A stretch of DNA of 63,441 bases from the NCBI GenBank assembly GCA_016927425.1, contig JAFGMR010000039.1, positions 1 through 63,441 of the forward strand, given 5' to 3'. The number at the start of each line of letters is the position of its first letter. The stretch's first letter is position 1. Made by a program: the position numbers and the translations under genes. Positions 2 to 6,805 of this stretch are shown here, in pieces. Below the pieces are notes generated by a model. It was not told the DNA's origin, searched no databases, and saw only the letters and a program-made list of their open reading frames with translations. Source of the stretch: Methanotrichaceae archaeon. GTDB taxonomy: Archaea; Halobacteriota; Methanosarcinia; Methanotrichales; Methanotrichaceae.

Positions 2-430
2 GCCGACTCAACAGCAAACGTCATAATCACTGTTATTGTGAAACCTACAATCAAATTAATTTACACGAACGAGACTACTACTTGGATGCTCTTTCCAACC
101 ATGGCAGGCAACGAGACAAGATCGGGGTTGCTCACAATTAAGGCAAATACAGACTGGCTGCTGATTGCTGAGGACATAAGTCCTGAAACATCTGGCTACA
201 TGACTGAGTGGGATGGCGAGAGATACAGCTCCTCGAAGCTTGCCCTGCCGTTGGTGGTATCGGCTGAGAGGAAGGTTGCGCTTCCGGTAGGTGGCGTAAT
301 CCAGACTGGATCGCGTACAACAGGGCAACAGGTGGATATCTTTCTCATACAGAGGGTCTTAACCGAAGAGCTTCCTAAGCAGGGAAACTACCGGATCGCA
401 ATCACCCTCAGGGGATCGCCCCTCGTCTGA
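2..430 (+). CDS. Secreted beta-sandwich protein, 5' end outside window
   Basis: The reading frame is open to the left window edge, so the start and probably a signal peptide lie upstream. An internal GTG at 38 is not a convincing start because coding-like sequence precedes it. The visible part is about 142 residues, rich in beta-prone stretches. It has a central KANTDWLLIAED segment and a C-terminal GNYRIAITLRG strand; both positions are matched by W-containing and GTY-type strands in the next genes (694, 2099). I read it as a small cell-surface subunit of a five-gene secreted cassette. No enzymatic motif is seen. The family is unknown; resemblance to WxL-type surface domains is inference from the motif layout. 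Confidence 0.6.
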   Translation, partial: ADSTANVIITVIVKPTIKLIYTNETTTWMLFPTMAGNETRSGLLTIKANTDWLLIAEDISPETSGYMTEWDGERYSSSKLALPLVVSAERKVALPVGGVIQTGSRTTGQQVDIFLIQRVLTEELPKQGNYRIAITLRGSPLV

Positions 431-693
431 GTGGATGATGGCGGCTGACTCTGAGAATCACAATTGAGACGGATATGCCCATCAAGTCCTCTCATCCCCC
501 CTTTTAAAGGCCGATCCATAGTCCCAGATGTGGGCGTTCATATTCCGGAACCGAGATTGGCCGCTTCACTTGTTGGATCTACAATCTAATAATTTTGACA
601 TATATACACATGTGGATGATCTATACGCTAACGTGCAGCGAGATAGCCGCAATCATCCATATCAATAATGATGTCTCTCCCGGAATGTAGGGG
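431..693 (+). promoter_or_regulatory. Intergenic region with candidate TATA promoter for the secreted cassette
   Basis: AT-rich sequence around 588-612 contains a TATATA-type box (about 600-607), the best archaeal promoter in this gap. It lies about 90 bases upstream of the ATG at 694, leaving a leader of about 65 bases. A second, independent promoter for the four downstream genes is therefore likely. No small gene is visible in the gap. Confidence 0.4.
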
Positions 694-1194
694 ATGAATA
701 TGTTCGAGAGGTTAGCATGTGTCCTTTGTATAGCCATCCTGGCTCTGACCGGAGCTTGCAGCGCTGCTGAGGGTACGACTTTAGTCTCGGCTTCGATGGG
801 AGAGCACATCTGGATCAGCGCTCCTGAATCGATCGAGCTGACTCTCACGCCAGAGACCACAGTTGAAAGCGTTCGACATGTACTGGTTAAGACCAATAAG
901 AACTTGGATTGGACTGTCACTGCCAGCATGAATCGTGATGATGGAATATTAATAGACGATACTGTCAACCCCTCAGTCGCGCTCTCTGATGCCCTAACTC
1001 TTACTACTACGTTGGAAGGGACAAAAACTCTAGAGGCCGAGAAGACGATTTATGATGATCCAGATGGGGATCACAAGACAGGTGGGCAGCAAAGGGATAT
1101 ACCGGTTACCTTTGGGCAGTACAGCACTTACGTCGATGAAGAAGGCACATACACCGGTGTGATTACGTTTACGGCCGAGTATAAGCAAACTTAA
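694..1194 (+). CDS. Secreted WxL-like beta-sandwich protein
   Basis: 166 residues. A classic signal peptide (residues 1-23, ending near GACSAAEG) is followed by one domain of about 140 residues. Visible elements are ESIELTLTPE at the N-terminus, a central NLDWTVTASM strand, and a C-terminal GTYTGVITFTAEY strand. This W-plus-terminal-GTY layout is that of small WxL/fimbria-like immunoglobulin-fold surface proteins, but no WxL motif is exact. An ATG at 700 is an alternative start with a GGGG element upstream. It lies 49 bases before the next secreted gene and is probably co-transcribed with it. Extracellular subunit by inference; no catalytic residues seen. Confidence 0.65.
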   Translation: MNMFERLACVLCIAILALTGACSAAEGTTLVSASMGEHIWISAPESIELTLTPETTVESVRHVLVKTNKNLDWTVTASMNRDDGILIDDTVNPSVALSDALTLTTTLEGTKTLEAEKTIYDDPDGDHKTGGQQRDIPVTFGQYSTYVDEEGTYTGVITFTAEYKQT

Positions 1195-1243
1195 GGATCA
1201 TCTCAAATCCATTTGTCAAGGATGGCAGGAAGATGATGTTAAT

Positions 1244-2065
1244 ATGAGAGTGCAAATATCCATCTGGGCGGCTAGAGCCGCTTTTATGAGCTGTATCCTC
1301 TTCCTTACCTCCGTACCGCCAGCCTCCGCCGGCTTTGACGTCGGAGGTGCGATATGCGTCCAGGAGGTAAACCCTGGACAACATATCATCCATAGGATGA
1401 CCGTCTTGATGGATAAGGGGGGTCAACCGATCGATATGGAGGCGAAGGTCTGGGGAAGGACACAGGGACTCGCAGATGAGCTACTGCTGATCGATCCTGC
1501 CGAGGATCAGAGCCCCTTCTCGGCAGCTCCATTCCTGAGGGTGGCTCCGGAGAGATTATATATCGAGCCTGGAGTCGTACAGGAGATCTTGCTCGAGGGG
1601 GATATCCCATTCGATGCCTGCCCTGGGACGTTTATAGCAGCAGTGCAGTTCAAGACTATTCCTGTCGACAATGGTGCTGTAGCGATTGCTTCTGCGGTGA
1701 ATGTGCCGATTAAGCTCATCGTGAAGAGCTGCAACCTTTCTATCACTGGTGAGATTGCGGATATCAATATCACAGGTCCTGAGCCCACTGGAAATGCCAT
1801 AGAGGTCTCATTTATTCTCAATAACATCGGAAATGCCAACTATTTCCCGATAGCCAATGCCACGCTCAAGGATGATTTGGGCAACGTTCTGGCGACGGAA
1901 TTGGTTGAGGCTTCCAATACATTGCTTCCAACCTATTCCAGGCAGTTTAACCTCTCGCTTCGGCCCGATGGGGAGCTTGGTCCGGGAAGATACAGCGTGA
2001 ACGTATCTGCAATGACGGAGGATGGCATTTTCTTGGCAAGCGAGGAGATGATGATCGAGGTATAG
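1244..2065 (+). CDS. Secreted two-domain Ig-fold protein (DUF916/chaperone-like)
   Basis: 273 residues. Signal peptide at 1-29 (ends PPASAGF). Residues about 30-145 form a beta-sandwich with the pattern FLRVAPERLYIEPGVVQEIL followed by PGTFIAAVQFKT, which recalls the first domain of DUF916/PapD-like proteins. Residues about 155-273 are a second CARDB-like domain (EVSFILNNIGNANYFPI). Cysteines near residues 37, 125 and 164 could form disulfides. In Gram-positive WxL cassettes a DUF916 protein accompanies small and large surface subunits, and the neighbours here parallel that. There is no C-terminal membrane anchor, unlike DUF916-DUF3324 proteins. Adapter or assembly partner is inference. Confidence 0.6.
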   Translation: MRVQISIWAARAAFMSCILFLTSVPPASAGFDVGGAICVQEVNPGQHIIHRMTVLMDKGGQPIDMEAKVWGRTQGLADELLLIDPAEDQSPFSAAPFLRVAPERLYIEPGVVQEILLEGDIPFDACPGTFIAAVQFKTIPVDNGAVAIASAVNVPIKLIVKSCNLSITGEIADINITGPEPTGNAIEVSFILNNIGNANYFPIANATLKDDLGNVLATELVEASNTLLPTYSRQFNLSLRPDGELGPGRYSVNVSAMTEDGIFLASEEMMIEV

Positions 2066-2098
2066 GCGGAGCTTTGCCTGCGCTATATAGTAATCGAT

Positions 2099-2740
2099 AT
2101 GCATCGACATTATGTATGGGTGATATACATTGAGGATAAGGCCGCCCAGAGCATTGGCGGCCATCTAATCGGCGTCAATATCGGCCCTCGTCCTTGGGTT
2201 GCCATCCTCTCCGCGTTCCTCATCCTGTCTTTTGCAGCCCATCCAGTTGCCACAGAGTCTCTCTCCTCCAATTTCATCCGAGCATCACCTGGTGAGCCGG
2301 TGATGGATCTTATAACGTTGGACGTAAGAAGCGGCGTGGAGAATGTAACAGCCAACATAGAGTTTGGCACTCTCTGTCCTGAAGAGACGTGCTCTAAGAT
2401 TGGAACGCTTGAGGTCAAGGGAGGCGGAGAATGGAGCGTGGAGGTCTTCTCGGATGGTGAGCCGATTCAGGGTCATATGTCCGAGTACGATCCGGTAGAA
2501 TGCGAGTACATCGGAGAGAGTGGCAGGCAGCTTGCAGATCCCTTGAAGATCCAAGCCTATGATCAGCAAGGGGCCTTTGTAGGCGAGGTCGATCTGGAGA
2601 GAGGGGGGGCAATCATACAAGGGGGGGGCAATGGGCCTGAGTTTTACACGTTATACTTCAATCAGACTGTTTGGTGGTGCGACGAGCCGCTTTCTCAGGG
2701 CCATATCTATCGAATAGTAGTGACTTTCTCCTTTGAGTGA
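2099..2740 (+). CDS. Secreted beta-sandwich protein of the surface cassette
   Basis: 213 residues. The hydrophobic export segment (PWVAILSAFLILSFAAHP, about residues 31-49) is preceded by an unusually long polar N-terminus, so the true start may lie downstream of 2099. The mature part has Cys pairs (GTLCPEETCS), a GGGEWSVEVFSDGEP strand and a C-terminal GHIYRIVVTFSFE strand. This is the same W-strand plus terminal YxIxxTF layout as the genes at 2 and 694. A glycine-rich stretch (IIQGGGNGPEF) lies near the C-terminus. It ends 9 bases before the giant DUF11 protein, so translation is probably coupled. Function unknown; surface structural role inferred. Confidence 0.6.
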   Translation: MHRHYVWVIYIEDKAAQSIGGHLIGVNIGPRPWVAILSAFLILSFAAHPVATESLSSNFIRASPGEPVMDLITLDVRSGVENVTANIEFGTLCPEETCSKIGTLEVKGGGEWSVEVFSDGEPIQGHMSEYDPVECEYIGESGRQLADPLKIQAYDQQGAFVGEVDLERGGAIIQGGGNGPEFYTLYFNQTVWWCDEPLSQGHIYRIVVTFSFE

Positions 2741-2749
2741 TGTTCGATC

Positions 2750-5700
2750 ATGAGAATCTGCCGCTCAGCTCATATCTACCTGAAGGTTCTCTTGGATGGA
2801 GTCGGATCTTCGAAGAAGGCTTTAAGACTTTCTCGCATTCCAAAGACTGCAGCTCTTGCCATCGCCATCCTTCTTGCGCTTATGCATGCAACCTCCATCG
2901 GATCGGGTGGAATGGATGTCCGGAATGCATCGGATAGCCTATATACCCTGCAGGTTGACCTTCCCTCTAAGGTTGTCTGCGACGTTGCAGTCTCCTATGC
3001 CCTTCCGGCAGGTTTAGCCTTCAGATCCGATAGCTTTATGATCTCTGGAGCGGCAGACGATGCCCTTCTGACAATCGATGGTCCAGCCGATGGAAGCCGA
3101 GTCTCTATTATGACCTGGAGCTTTGGCGACCTAGATAACTCGTGGAACAAAGACCTGAGGATCCAGTTCGCTGTAACCGTTGCCAACATAGCGTCCAACA
3201 GGGACGGTGTGACGATCGAGCCCGGAAGTGCGAGCCTGAGATGGATGGACAGGGAAGGAGAGCCTCACACTATCTCCTACCGATCGAGATCGGTGAAGGT
3301 AGTCGAGCCCGATCTATCGATCGACCGAGAGTTTGAGCCTTCGAGCGGCTGGCGCGGAGATGAGGTAATCTGCACTCTCTTAATCTATCATTCGCCAATC
3401 AGCACCGCAGATGCCTACGATGTAGATGTCCATGAGGGCCTGCCGGAGGGTCTTACCTACGTGCCTGGCTCATTAGAGGTGCTGGAGGGGCCTTTTGAGA
3501 TGATAGAGGATGGAGATGAGCTTGGATGGCGATTTTCGCATGTCGAGAGATCCTGGAATAAAGAGAATAAGATCCGGCTCAGGTACAGGGCTACGATCGA
3601 AGAGAACGTCCGGGCAAACGACTCCTTGGACTACATGGCAACTTTGACATGGACGAGCGCTCCAGGCAAAAATTCAGACGAGAGGAGTTACTCGCGATCC
3701 ATTGAAGGCCAAATCGTTCTTGTTCCTTGCGAGCCGGACCTCATGATCACTCTTGGCGACGATCCAGATCCTATAAGGCCGGGGTGGATGCTGAACTACA
3801 CAATCGCCTACCTGAATAACGGAAGCTATGCCCTCGATCCGGTCGTTGAGGTCGACTACGATCAGAACCTATCCTTCGTCTCGGCAGACCCAGATCCGGA
3901 TCGCGGGACAACCAACCGCTGGAGCCTGGGGGGACTGAAGAGTGGTGGCTCCGGAGTCATAAGGATCTCGATGCTTACAAGCCCATCGATCCCGAATGGA
4001 ACAACGCTTGTCAGCTTGGCTAAAATCTCCAGCTCGGATGACGCAGATGCCATTGCCGTGGCAAGCACCCGAGCGGATCGAAACGCCTCTTCTCTTTACA
4101 TAAACGCGACCGCATCAAGCCCAATCATCCGGCCCGGAGGCACTCTCAACTACACGATCGACTACGGAAATGGCGGACGAGTCATCACGAGAAACGTTAC
4201 CATAACCGATATCATCGATCCGCACCTTGCCTTCGATCCAGGGGGGTCTTACCCGCAGCCGACCAATTTATGGTCTGACGAGGAGGGAACTCATCTTTAT
4301 TGGGATTCCGAGCGGCTGAGATCGGGCTCTTTTTCCCCTGGCGCCTCGGGAAAAATCGAGATCCAAGTATCCCTTCCCCCGATCCCAGAGCACCCTGACC
4401 CCGATTTTATCTATAACCGCTACAAGATAGACTCCGAAGAGACCGATGGCGACTTCAGCATCTTGGAGACCTTCGTAGTCCACTCGCTCTACATCAAGAA
4501 GTGGGCGGATAAGGACGTCTACTCCAAAGGAGAGATCGTCAACTATACAATACTCTATGGAAATGAGCTGGCCTTGGACGCTACCGAGGCAGTCATCCAC
4601 GATCTTCTGCCCGATCTGGAATTCCTAAGGGCAGACCCCCCTCCAAGCTCGATCGATAAAAGCAGATTGACCTGGAAGATCGAGACCTTGTCTGCCAAGA
4701 CGAGCGGCATAATAAGGCTATATGCCAGAATCAAAGACGATCTAAGGGGAATCGAATTCATAAACTGCGAGGCTGTATCAGGATATGGTTATGTGAGAAT
4801 AGATCGCAAGTTCTCAACCTCAGTCAGGTCCAATGATCTTGTGAACTATGCAGAGATCAGGGCAAATTATGGCGACCTGCCCGACTTCGACAGCTGCACT
4901 GCTGCCATAAGGCTTTCGGACTCCGTTGGATCCGAGGCGAAGATCCGCGAGCATGGAAGCGGACAATACTCCCGCGAGGACGAGACGAATCTTCTGACCG
5001 AGAAGAATCTCATCCGGGTCGAGACGAATATGACGGCGAGATATGGGACCACATCCTTTGAACTGCCGGGGAACAGATCGATCGACTTCGCATCCAGATG
5101 GTCAGAGGCCTATTCTTCCAAGAACTATAGGACCGGGGCTTCGATCAACGAGCGATACATGTATGCAACAAGCATTGACCGGGAAAGCACTCTCAACCTG
5201 GACGAGAACGGCTCTACTCTTGCCACAGAGACCTCATTCGTTGGGAAAGGCCATATGGGCGTGCTCAAGAAGGCAAGCACCAAAGAGACCGTCAAGGAGA
5301 CCCCCATCTACGAGTCAGAGGAGGAGTACCTGGGAAGCTTCAGGATCCATGTCGATGTAGATGAGTACGGCAAGAACGTTGCAGCCGGCCGTTCCATCTC
5401 GGGCATAGGAATGGTGGCTGTGGAGAAGAGCCTCGGCAAGAGCCAGAGGTCTTACGAGTCGGGAACCGGCTCATATCAGGTCGAGGACCGGATCGAGACG
5501 CAGACGAGCTACATGGCCAAGGAGATAAACGTCTCCTGTGAGCCTGTGGAGTGCGTCCTCGCTCCCCAAGTCGAGGCGAATCCCGATCTGAGATGGCATG
5601 AGGGAATGTGGTCGAAATCCGGCACTATGCCCTCCAAGGGTTCGAACAGCTCGAATCCTGCAAGTTTCATAGGCGAGGAGTTCTCCGAGGTAGACTACCT

Positions 5701-6805
5701 CAATAAGAGCACTGTTGCAAGGGGCCTTTCCGAGATGGAGACCGAGGCCGAGTTCTCCGGCCGCGCTGAGTTCGAGACGTCATATGTCTCAGGCCCACCC
5801 AATCAAACCCGCATTGAAACAAGCCTGGTCGATGAATATCTGGGCAGATATGAGATTAGGCGAAAGACGGCGATCGGAGGAGCTGCGCGATTCGCCGAGC
5901 CGCACATCAGCGTAAGCGTTCTCGGCAGGATCGATCCTGAGCAAGGCAGTTTGGTCAACTACGTCATAACCGCGGTCAACGATGGCAACCGCGCTCTTGG
6001 GCCTGTCCATGTATTGGATCTCTTCCCGACGGAGACGGAGTATGTTTACTCCTCTTTGCGGCCCGACAACATCACAGAGAGCTCAGCCTCCTGGACGCTG
6101 GTCAACCTGGGCATCGGGGCGAATACCAGCATAGATCTGTTGCTCAACGTCACAGGAGAGACGGCTGGCCTCGTGAACTGCGTGGAGATCCGGGGAGGCT
6201 ACGACGATCAGTGGATCCAGGCCCAGAACTGCTCCGTCCTGCAGCTCAACTGGCTGACCTGCTGTCCCGCGGGGATTTCGGCGGCCAAGGCCGGTTATGT
6301 GGATGGCAACGATAGCATGCTTGTGCACTACAGGATCGCGCTTGAGAATCGCGAGAATTACATAATGGCGGTCTCCGTCGCAGACAGCCTCCCTGGCGGG
6401 ATGGCCTTCATCAACTCCACGCAAACGCCTGCGGACTACAGGTCAGATGAGGTGAGATGGAATATAGTCGACCTCTTGCCAGGCGAGACGAGGATCATCG
6501 ACTATCTGGCCAGGGCATCGTACGCCGGAAGCTTCGTAAACGAGGCCCACATAGAGGCGGTCTCGGTTGAGAGCGGGGATATTGCGACAGCGGATGTTTC
6601 ATGCCAGGTAACGATCGACGGCGGATATCATCAGGCCGCAAGCTCAGTGTGGCAGCCTCCTGATTGCTTCGGCTTGAGTTGCGTCCTGCCAGATCTCGAT
6701 GAAGAGTGGATCTCCTGCAATCCCTGTGGGAATCTCGAACCGCCATCCTTGGAGACGAACCTCACCTCCTCCACGTCGGGCAGCGAATACGATCTGTATA
6801 TCTAA
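2750..6805 (+). CDS. Giant secreted DUF11-repeat surface protein
   Basis: 1351 residues. A hydrophobic export segment at about 34-48 follows a long basic N-terminus, so a later start is possible. Residues about 60-690 hold around five DUF11/CARDB-type Ig modules, recognisable by repeated NYTI-Y-N-G starts and by strands of the L-P-x-L-F/T-Y/F-V type. Residues about 734-873 and 903-1040 look like two copies of one unrecognised domain; each starts with a G-S/T-G-x-Y-x-x-E-D motif and ends with EYLGxF/YxI. Residues about 1050-1270 return to two DUF11 modules. N-glycosylation sequons (NxS/T) are abundant, consistent with AglB elsewhere in this window. No C-terminal transmembrane anchor is visible. 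Probably a surface layer, sheath or adhesion protein. Confidence 0.8.
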   Translation: MRICRSAHIYLKVLLDGVGSSKKALRLSRIPKTAALAIAILLALMHATSIGSGGMDVRNASDSLYTLQVDLPSKVVCDVAVSYALPAGLAFRSDSFMISGAADDALLTIDGPADGSRVSIMTWSFGDLDNSWNKDLRIQFAVTVANIASNRDGVTIEPGSASLRWMDREGEPHTISYRSRSVKVVEPDLSIDREFEPSSGWRGDEVICTLLIYHSPISTADAYDVDVHEGLPEGLTYVPGSLEVLEGPFEMIEDGDELGWRFSHVERSWNKENKIRLRYRATIEENVRANDSLDYMATLTWTSAPGKNSDERSYSRSIEGQIVLVPCEPDLMITLGDDPDPIRPGWMLNYTIAYLNNGSYALDPVVEVDYDQNLSFVSADPDPDRGTTNRWSLGGLKSGGSGVIRISMLTSPSIPNGTTLVSLAKISSSDDADAIAVASTRADRNASSLYINATASSPIIRPGGTLNYTIDYGNGGRVITRNVTITDIIDPHLAFDPGGSYPQPTNLWSDEEGTHLYWDSERLRSGSFSPGASGKIEIQVSLPPIPEHPDPDFIYNRYKIDSEETDGDFSILETFVVHSLYIKKWADKDVYSKGEIVNYTILYGNELALDATEAVIHDLLPDLEFLRADPPPSSIDKSRLTWKIETLSAKTSGIIRLYARIKDDLRGIEFINCEAVSGYGYVRIDRKFSTSVRSNDLVNYAEIRANYGDLPDFDSCTAAIRLSDSVGSEAKIREHGSGQYSREDETNLLTEKNLIRVETNMTARYGTTSFELPGNRSIDFASRWSEAYSSKNYRTGASINERYMYATSIDRESTLNLDENGSTLATETSFVGKGHMGVLKKASTKETVKETPIYESEEEYLGSFRIHVDVDEYGKNVAAGRSISGIGMVAVEKSLGKSQRSYESGTGSYQVEDRIETQTSYMAKEINVSCEPVECVLAPQVEANPDLRWHEGMWSKSGTMPSKGSNSSNPASFIGEEFSEVDYLNKSTVARGLSEMETEAEFSGRAEFETSYVSGPPNQTRIETSLVDEYLGRYEIRRKTAIGGAARFAEPHISVSVLGRIDPEQGSLVNYVITAVNDGNRALGPVHVLDLFPTETEYVYSSLRPDNITESSASWTLVNLGIGANTSIDLLLNVTGETAGLVNCVEIRGGYDDQWIQAQNCSVLQLNWLTCCPAGISAAKAGYVDGNDSMLVHYRIALENRENYIMAVSVADSLPGGMAFINSTQTPADYRSDEVRWNIVDLLPGETRIIDYLARASYAGSFVNEAHIEAVSVESGDIATADVSCQVTIDGGYHQAASSVWQPPDCFGLSCVLPDLDEEWISCNPCGNLEPPSLETNLTSSTSGSEYDLYI

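Follow-up and report, generated by a model that had tools for sequence, protein, structure and literature searches.

Which putative surface system do five adjoining genes at the edge of a methanogen contig encode, and how is it related to the WxL operons of Gram-positive bacteria? The window, the whole stretch of DNA analysed here (63,441 nucleotides), is an entire contig of a Methanotrichaceae genome (2.3 Mb, 99% complete). A first-pass annotation of its letters had likened the five genes to a WxL operon, in which small and large WxL proteins are combined with a DUF916 partner.

Layout of the Cassette

Of the five proteins of the cassette, C is WxLIP-like, E is a DUF11 giant, and A, B, and D have one domain in common. 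The common domain is a small C-terminal domain of about 140 residues and is named S here. All five open reading frames (ORFs) lie on the + strand where the first-pass annotation had placed them:

2 to 430, + strand: protein A, S-domain protein; ORF open at base 1, 142 aa visible, N-terminus and signal peptide missing
694 to 1194, + strand: protein B, small S-domain protein; 166 aa including signal peptide, S profile match
1244 to 2065, + strand: protein C, WxLIP-like docking protein (putative); 273 aa, signal peptide followed by two Ig-like domains, membrane helix at the C-terminus lacking
1661 to 1723, + strand: putative donor element of C, a hairpin plus strand (DNGAVAIASAVNVPIKLIV, residues about 140-160); aligns to the hairpin region of WxLIP, proposed role only
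2099 to 2740, + strand: protein D, S-domain protein; 213 aa, signal peptide, start at 2099 or 2120, subtype that occurs between C and E
2750 to 6805, + strand: protein E; 1351 aa, conserved domain at the N-terminus and DUF11 repeats, S domain absent, no anchor found at the C-terminus

Base 1 is the contig edge, and the start of protein A is therefore absent. The gaps A-B, B-C, C-D, and D-E measure 263, 49, 33, and 9 bases, in keeping with the same-strand, closely spaced arrangement described earlier. Because the last three gaps are so short, B to E look co-transcribed, with A set further off. One C gene and three S genes thus lie within 2.7 kb of the window, the S genes being WxL-like. The cassette converges on apparent rps7, rps12, and RNA polymerase genes of the - strand.

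Protein C, a Remote Relative of WxLIP

By profile and fold comparison, protein C is a remote homologue of WxLIP (DUF916-DUF3324; PF06030 plus PF11797), the docking protein of Lactobacillales. In both, a signal peptide precedes two tandem Ig-like domains; the folds match, and both are encoded beside secreted beta-sandwich partners. Profile-profile comparison with hhalign joins them with a probability of 94-97% overall, with and without signal peptides, over 228-288 columns that span both domains. Seven WxLIP from lactic acid bacterial plasmids gave 96.5% over 228 columns, twelve WxLIP gave 96.5%, and a C profile enlarged with distant archaeal C sequences gave 97%. The alignment scores 64; when columns or blocks of these profiles are shuffled, the score does not exceed 27. 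A reversed-WxLIP control reached 2%.

Pilus chaperones and pilins served as further comparisons. Eight E. coli K-12 pilus chaperones gave 1-21% with C; the early similarity of 21% was discarded, having dropped to 1-2% on trimming of the signal peptides. The pilin control gave 1-5%. Between WxLIP and the pilus chaperones themselves the score is only about 1%, which makes the signal between C and WxLIP specific.

The AlphaFold2 model of C, built from 19 Methanotrichaceae sequences, is a two-domain beta sandwich with a pLDDT of 87.8. In a Foldseek search of the PDB, chains of Enterococcus faecium WxLIP (9i25, 9i1y), in free and WxL-bound form, rank first, second, and fourth, with E-values from 1e-10 to 1e-9. 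Chain 9i25_C, WxLIP bound to a long WxL protein, matches the model with E 1e-10 and TM-scores of 0.56/0.60. The fimbrial chaperones CfaA, Caf1M, CsuC, and FimC rank just below. A PDB sequence search with the C profile likewise placed WxLIP first (E 0.11). The best match of C to a solved structure is thus WxLIP, ahead of the fimbrial chaperones, and the earlier call of a two-domain DUF916/PapD-like protein stands on profile-profile comparison and fold, with no Pfam DUF916 name attached.

Several features set C apart from WxLIP. It falls below the Pfam cut-offs: none of 41 relatives exceeds that of PF06030, and the 19 C proteins yield only weak matches to PF11797 (E 0.016) and PF06030 (E 0.03). 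WxLIP carries the motif NQIDKxxxYFDLK near its N-terminus (PMC10599100). This motif is absent from C, and the equivalent stretch of the C alignment reads EVxPGExIxHEMxV. A contig search with window C alone returned no relative, and one with a Methanomicrobiales alignment succeeded. A profile of C from outside Methanotrichaceae matches window C with E 1.7e-43.

The S Domain

Two S profiles were used, one of 95 related domains with the window rows left out and one of 51 domains, all from outside Methanotrichaceae. Both match exactly three of the 550 six-frame ORFs in the 63 kb window: A (E 3.5e-24 and 6.2e-17, respectively), B (5.6e-17 and 1.2e-13), and D (2e-29 and 1.5e-19). The leave-family-out result rules out chance sharing of motifs, and on these profile matches A, B, and D belong to one family. 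The W-containing middle strand and terminal GxY...ITF strand that the first reading had noticed in the three small proteins are accordingly common to them. Pfam and NCBIfam scans of A-D in the window gave no family name.

Conservation among 98 distinct S domains falls on W-x-[VL]-x-[VA] (W 84%), G-x-M (90/86%), and L-x-x-P (91/63%), along with a near-invariant Q (98%) and D (94%). The final strand reads Y-x-x-x-[VLI]-T-F (98/68/75%). In 96 of the 98, S ends no more than four residues from the C-terminus of the protein. Most S-bearing proteins (72/98) are small and contain little beyond a signal peptide and S; the other 26 are large (277-1530 aa), nearly all from outside Methanotrichaceae. S occurs as a single copy at the end of these large multidomain proteins. 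In three that were scanned, the domains N-terminal of S are ice-binding-like (L091), Big_5 (L163), and CARDB (L172). The combination of small and large S proteins is absent from the window and is found in Methanomicrobiales and Dehalococcoidia relatives.

The AlphaFold2 model of protein D is a beta sandwich (pLDDT 80.6). Protein B has a weak direct match beside C in another genus. At L091:8474-9727, near C in a Methanomicrobiales-type genome, an ice-binding-like PF11999 domain is fused to a C-terminal S. An S protein on the opposite strand near the cassette is conserved in two Methanothrix genomes (L040:11527-12060 and L042:7444-7983).

S Compared with the WxL Domain

S and the WxL domain (PF13731) are both secreted, C-terminal domains with small forms (domain only) and large forms (adhesin plus domain), and are encoded beside C and WxLIP, respectively. 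The rule that the domain is C-terminal in small and large WxL proteins (PMC9772566) is followed by S. Both have an early W-x-L/V strand and a last strand of the type Y-x-x-x-[LV]-T-[WF]. S differs in being shorter (about 140 vs 160-190 aa) and in lacking the second W-x-L motif. It has Y-x-x-x-[VLI]-T-F instead, with F for W and no L two residues on; the first W (84%) is kept as W-x-[VL].

Searches did not join the two domains. The Pfam WxL model matches none of 37 S proteins and nothing in the genomes of 41 relatives, and hhalign gives a probability of 1-7%. The best alignment covers 99 columns and pairs W with W and the final Y-x-x-x-[LV]-T-[FW] strands; 7 of 150 block shuffles score as high, and one of 150 reaches its length. 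The WxL search query was an approximate consensus, and only database records retrieved with it were used afterwards. PDB sequence searches with the S profiles returned noise only, as did tblastn of one S protein against plasmids. Foldseek of the D model against the PDB found nothing better than E 2e-3, with scattered GOLD, CUB, and other sandwich folds and no WxL among the first 50 matches. A difference in topology between the large and small WxL domains has been reported (PMC9772566), so the folds of S and WxL may have to be compared in the bound form. An early similarity of S to pilins (12-36%) was set aside, since it fell to about 2% once signal peptides were trimmed and looked like a signal-peptide effect.

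Anchors of C and the Role of Protein E

WxLIP ends in a C-terminal membrane helix (PMC10599100), and the distant archaeal homologues of C share this feature: all 17 examined have a C-terminal hydrophobic helix followed by a basic tail. By contrast with WxLIP, window C and all Methanotrichaceae C lack the helix, and they have no SLH repeats in its place. One bacterial C (L163:3099-4493) carries three SLH domains instead of the membrane helix, and tblastn of this protein against plasmids returned mainly SLH repeat matches. Such a swap of anchors fits a docking function for C.

These anchors bear on the reading of the cassette as a chaperone-assisted pilus, in which C would be a PapD-like chaperone, the S proteins pilins assembled by donor-strand exchange, and E the tip or base. 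Chaperones of the chaperone-usher pathway (PapD, FimC, Caf1M, CsuC, and CfaA) resemble C in their two Ig-like domains, in fold (below WxLIP), and in a likely G1-type donor strand. Several S paralogues, up to four or five, occur per cassette, and donor-strand filaments exist in archaea. A soluble chaperone would, however, not be anchored in the membrane, as C is in 17 of 17 Methanomicrobiales-type homologues, or by SLH domains, as in one bacterium, and S is a single copy that ends large multidomain proteins. No usher was noticed in the gene lists of the window and of Methanotrichaceae C loci or next to C in any archaeal locus that was read, and an usher would need an outer membrane, which archaea do not have. 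The profile similarity to K-12 chaperones is also far below that to WxLIP and at background without signal peptides. The pilus is an unlikely reading.

Protein E contains five DUF11 stretches (PF01345, E 3e-44; also TIGR01451). The annotation had placed this giant at the position of the large WxL protein, a proposal now rejected: E has no S domain, the S profiles matching only A, B, and D among the window ORFs, and among the loci examined its N-terminal domain is confined to C loci of Methanotrichaceae. The middle region of E (window 4860-5870, about residues 700-1040) lies between the DUF11 repeats, is rich in S, E, R, and Y, and is unlike DUF11.

A Candidate Docking Mechanism

The cassette is probably a methanogen version of non-covalent surface docking, in which C captures secreted proteins tagged with S. 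Such proteins carry S at their C-terminus, and A, B, and D consist of little else. C would bind the S domains and keep them on the cell surface; the likeliest way is for its N-terminal domain to contribute a beta strand to the S sandwich. In most relatives, the membrane helix at its C-terminus would fix C; in one bacterium, SLH repeats would do so. Because S domains end large adhesin-like proteins in relatives, the system would serve to display cargo. The C proteins of Methanotrichaceae are unanchored, and there E probably provides length or a hold on the sheath. It counts against the docking reading that window C lacks an anchor and that S is absent from E.

AlphaFold2 models of the Gram-positive proteins show a DUF916 hairpin becoming a strand of the WxL sandwich (PMC10599100), and the deposited structure 9i25, known here as a database match only, is of WxLIP bound to a long WxL protein. 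Residues about 140-160 of C align with the WxLIP hairpin region in hhalign. Within this stretch, residues 141-150 have a local pLDDT of 74, lower than their surroundings, and the alternating hydrophobic pattern is kept in 19 homologues. By analogy, C may capture S domains by strand donation and hold them at the surface.

Like the csc/WxL clusters of Gram-positive bacteria, the cassette combines one docking protein with at least two partners on one strand at short spacing. It differs in that no LPxTG protein or sortase was noticed beside C in the window and in that the DUF11 giant E occupies the place of the large WxL protein in Methanotrichaceae. The WxL-like reading as a whole is supported by the homology of C and WxLIP, the co-occurrence of C and S, and the small-plus-large forms in relatives. 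Two of its parts do not stand as first put: E is no large WxL counterpart, and kinship of the small proteins with WxL proper is at most possible (1-7%).

Distribution and Phylogeny

In the phylum of the window genome, full-length C (E < 1e-30) is found in 19 of 394 genomes, four of the 19 being Methanotrichaceae. S (E < 1e-6) is found in 15 of the 394, and all 15 belong to the 19 with full-length C (hypergeometric p = 8e-24, a value that the relatedness of the genomes makes weaker). The S matches in these 15 genomes adjoin C. A pattern scan of GTDB contigs with the Methanomicrobiales alignment gave 37 named loci in Methanoregula, Methanolinea, Methanocella, Methanoculleus, and Methanothrix, plus three in bacterial bins. 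S lies beside C in 35 of the 37, and C is near a contig end in the other two. Co-occurrence in relatives, put forward earlier as a check, is strongly positive. The C-S pair recurs in Methanomicrobiales, Methanocella, and Dehalococcoidia. The C proteins of L172 (Dehalococcoidia UBA6808) and L181 (Methanotrichaceae UBA9297) differ, with 330 and 279 aa.

The bacterial cases look genuine. L156 (Dehalococcoidales) has apparent ftsA and ftsZ genes next to it, a second C is present in two of the bacterial genomes, and S stands next to C in further loci of the L156 phylum (L221-L224).

Within Methanotrichaceae, 16 of 50 genomes have C, with one to five S proteins around it and usually E where the contig is long enough. 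This patchiness is evidence against the docking reading. It also counts against a second alternative, that the S proteins and E are building blocks of the Methanothrix sheath or S-layer with C as a folding helper, since a sheath part would be expected in all genomes. In its favour, Methanotrichaceae are sheathed filaments, and their cassettes carry E together with an unanchored C. The C-S pair is, however, common in Methanomicrobiales and present in Dehalococcoidia, and the sheath reading is rather improbable, slightly more so than the pilus.

The tight linkage of C and S likewise bears on a third alternative, convergent assembly of common Ig-like secreted proteins with a superficial likeness to WxL. 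Tandem PapD/Ig-like proteins are indeed common among bacteria; in one phylum, 45 of 300 genomes have them, mostly in the company of other partners. The 41 relatives have no Pfam WxL match and no DUF916 match above cut-off. Set against this are the WxLIP-specific profile signal with its controls, the first rank of WxLIP in the fold search, and the same logic of two components, a C-terminal domain, and a membrane anchor. Convergence has already been made unlikely and is given little credence here.

In a maximum-likelihood tree (80 C-type domains, 6 WxLIP), the S-associated C proteins fall into one group of 63 rows (support 98/98). It comprises a Methanomicrobiales-type subgroup (35 rows, 95/90), a Methanotrichaceae subgroup (20 rows, 99/86), and a further 8 rows from bacteria. 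WxLIP stands apart on a long branch of its own, and the deep order is unsure because the tree has several such branches.

WxL domains have been described as peptidoglycan-binding, and these methanogenic archaea, the hosts of C, have no peptidoglycan. The WxL domain has also been described as exclusively bacterial (PMC9772566). Searches of open-licence papers on WxL or DUF916 with archaea, Chloroflexi, or the methanogen surface found no such system and no experimental work on these archaeal proteins, and within that literature the earlier statement that none had been described for methanogens is upheld. The cassette suggests WxL-like surface fixing in archaea, hitherto described only in bacteria. 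There is an even chance that a two-part docking system, a WxLIP-type anchored receptor with a C-terminal docking domain, is older and wider than WxL, extending over Methanomicrobiales, Methanotrichaceae, Methanocella, Dehalococcoidia, and a few other bacteria, with Gram-positive WxL as one branch. Peptidoglycan binding would then be secondary rather than the core of the system, because the archaeal branch works without peptidoglycan.

If docking is confirmed, archaea gain a named and testable mode of surface attachment without sortase-type or archaeosortase-type chemistry, and a family of secreted proteins that bear no Pfam or NCBIfam name (A-D in the window) can be named. It would raise the question of what WxL-type domains bind where there is no peptidoglycan, with a bearing on the adhesion of methanogens and their bacterial neighbours in granules and sediments.

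Distant C-like proteins also occur in other settings. In the phylum of genome G433 (L227, L228, L231, L233, L234, and L240), C-like tandem proteins of ~550 aa belong to a different cassette. They adjoin secretin-like proteins ending in ...PLLGDLPLLxxLFSSTxx...ETExVIxITPxI and small secreted proteins ending in ...YEDTATITL.... At L229:2103-7243 and L230:1-5099, a distant C-like protein is followed by a protein of 1380-1410 aa, which may be a chaperone-usher relative.
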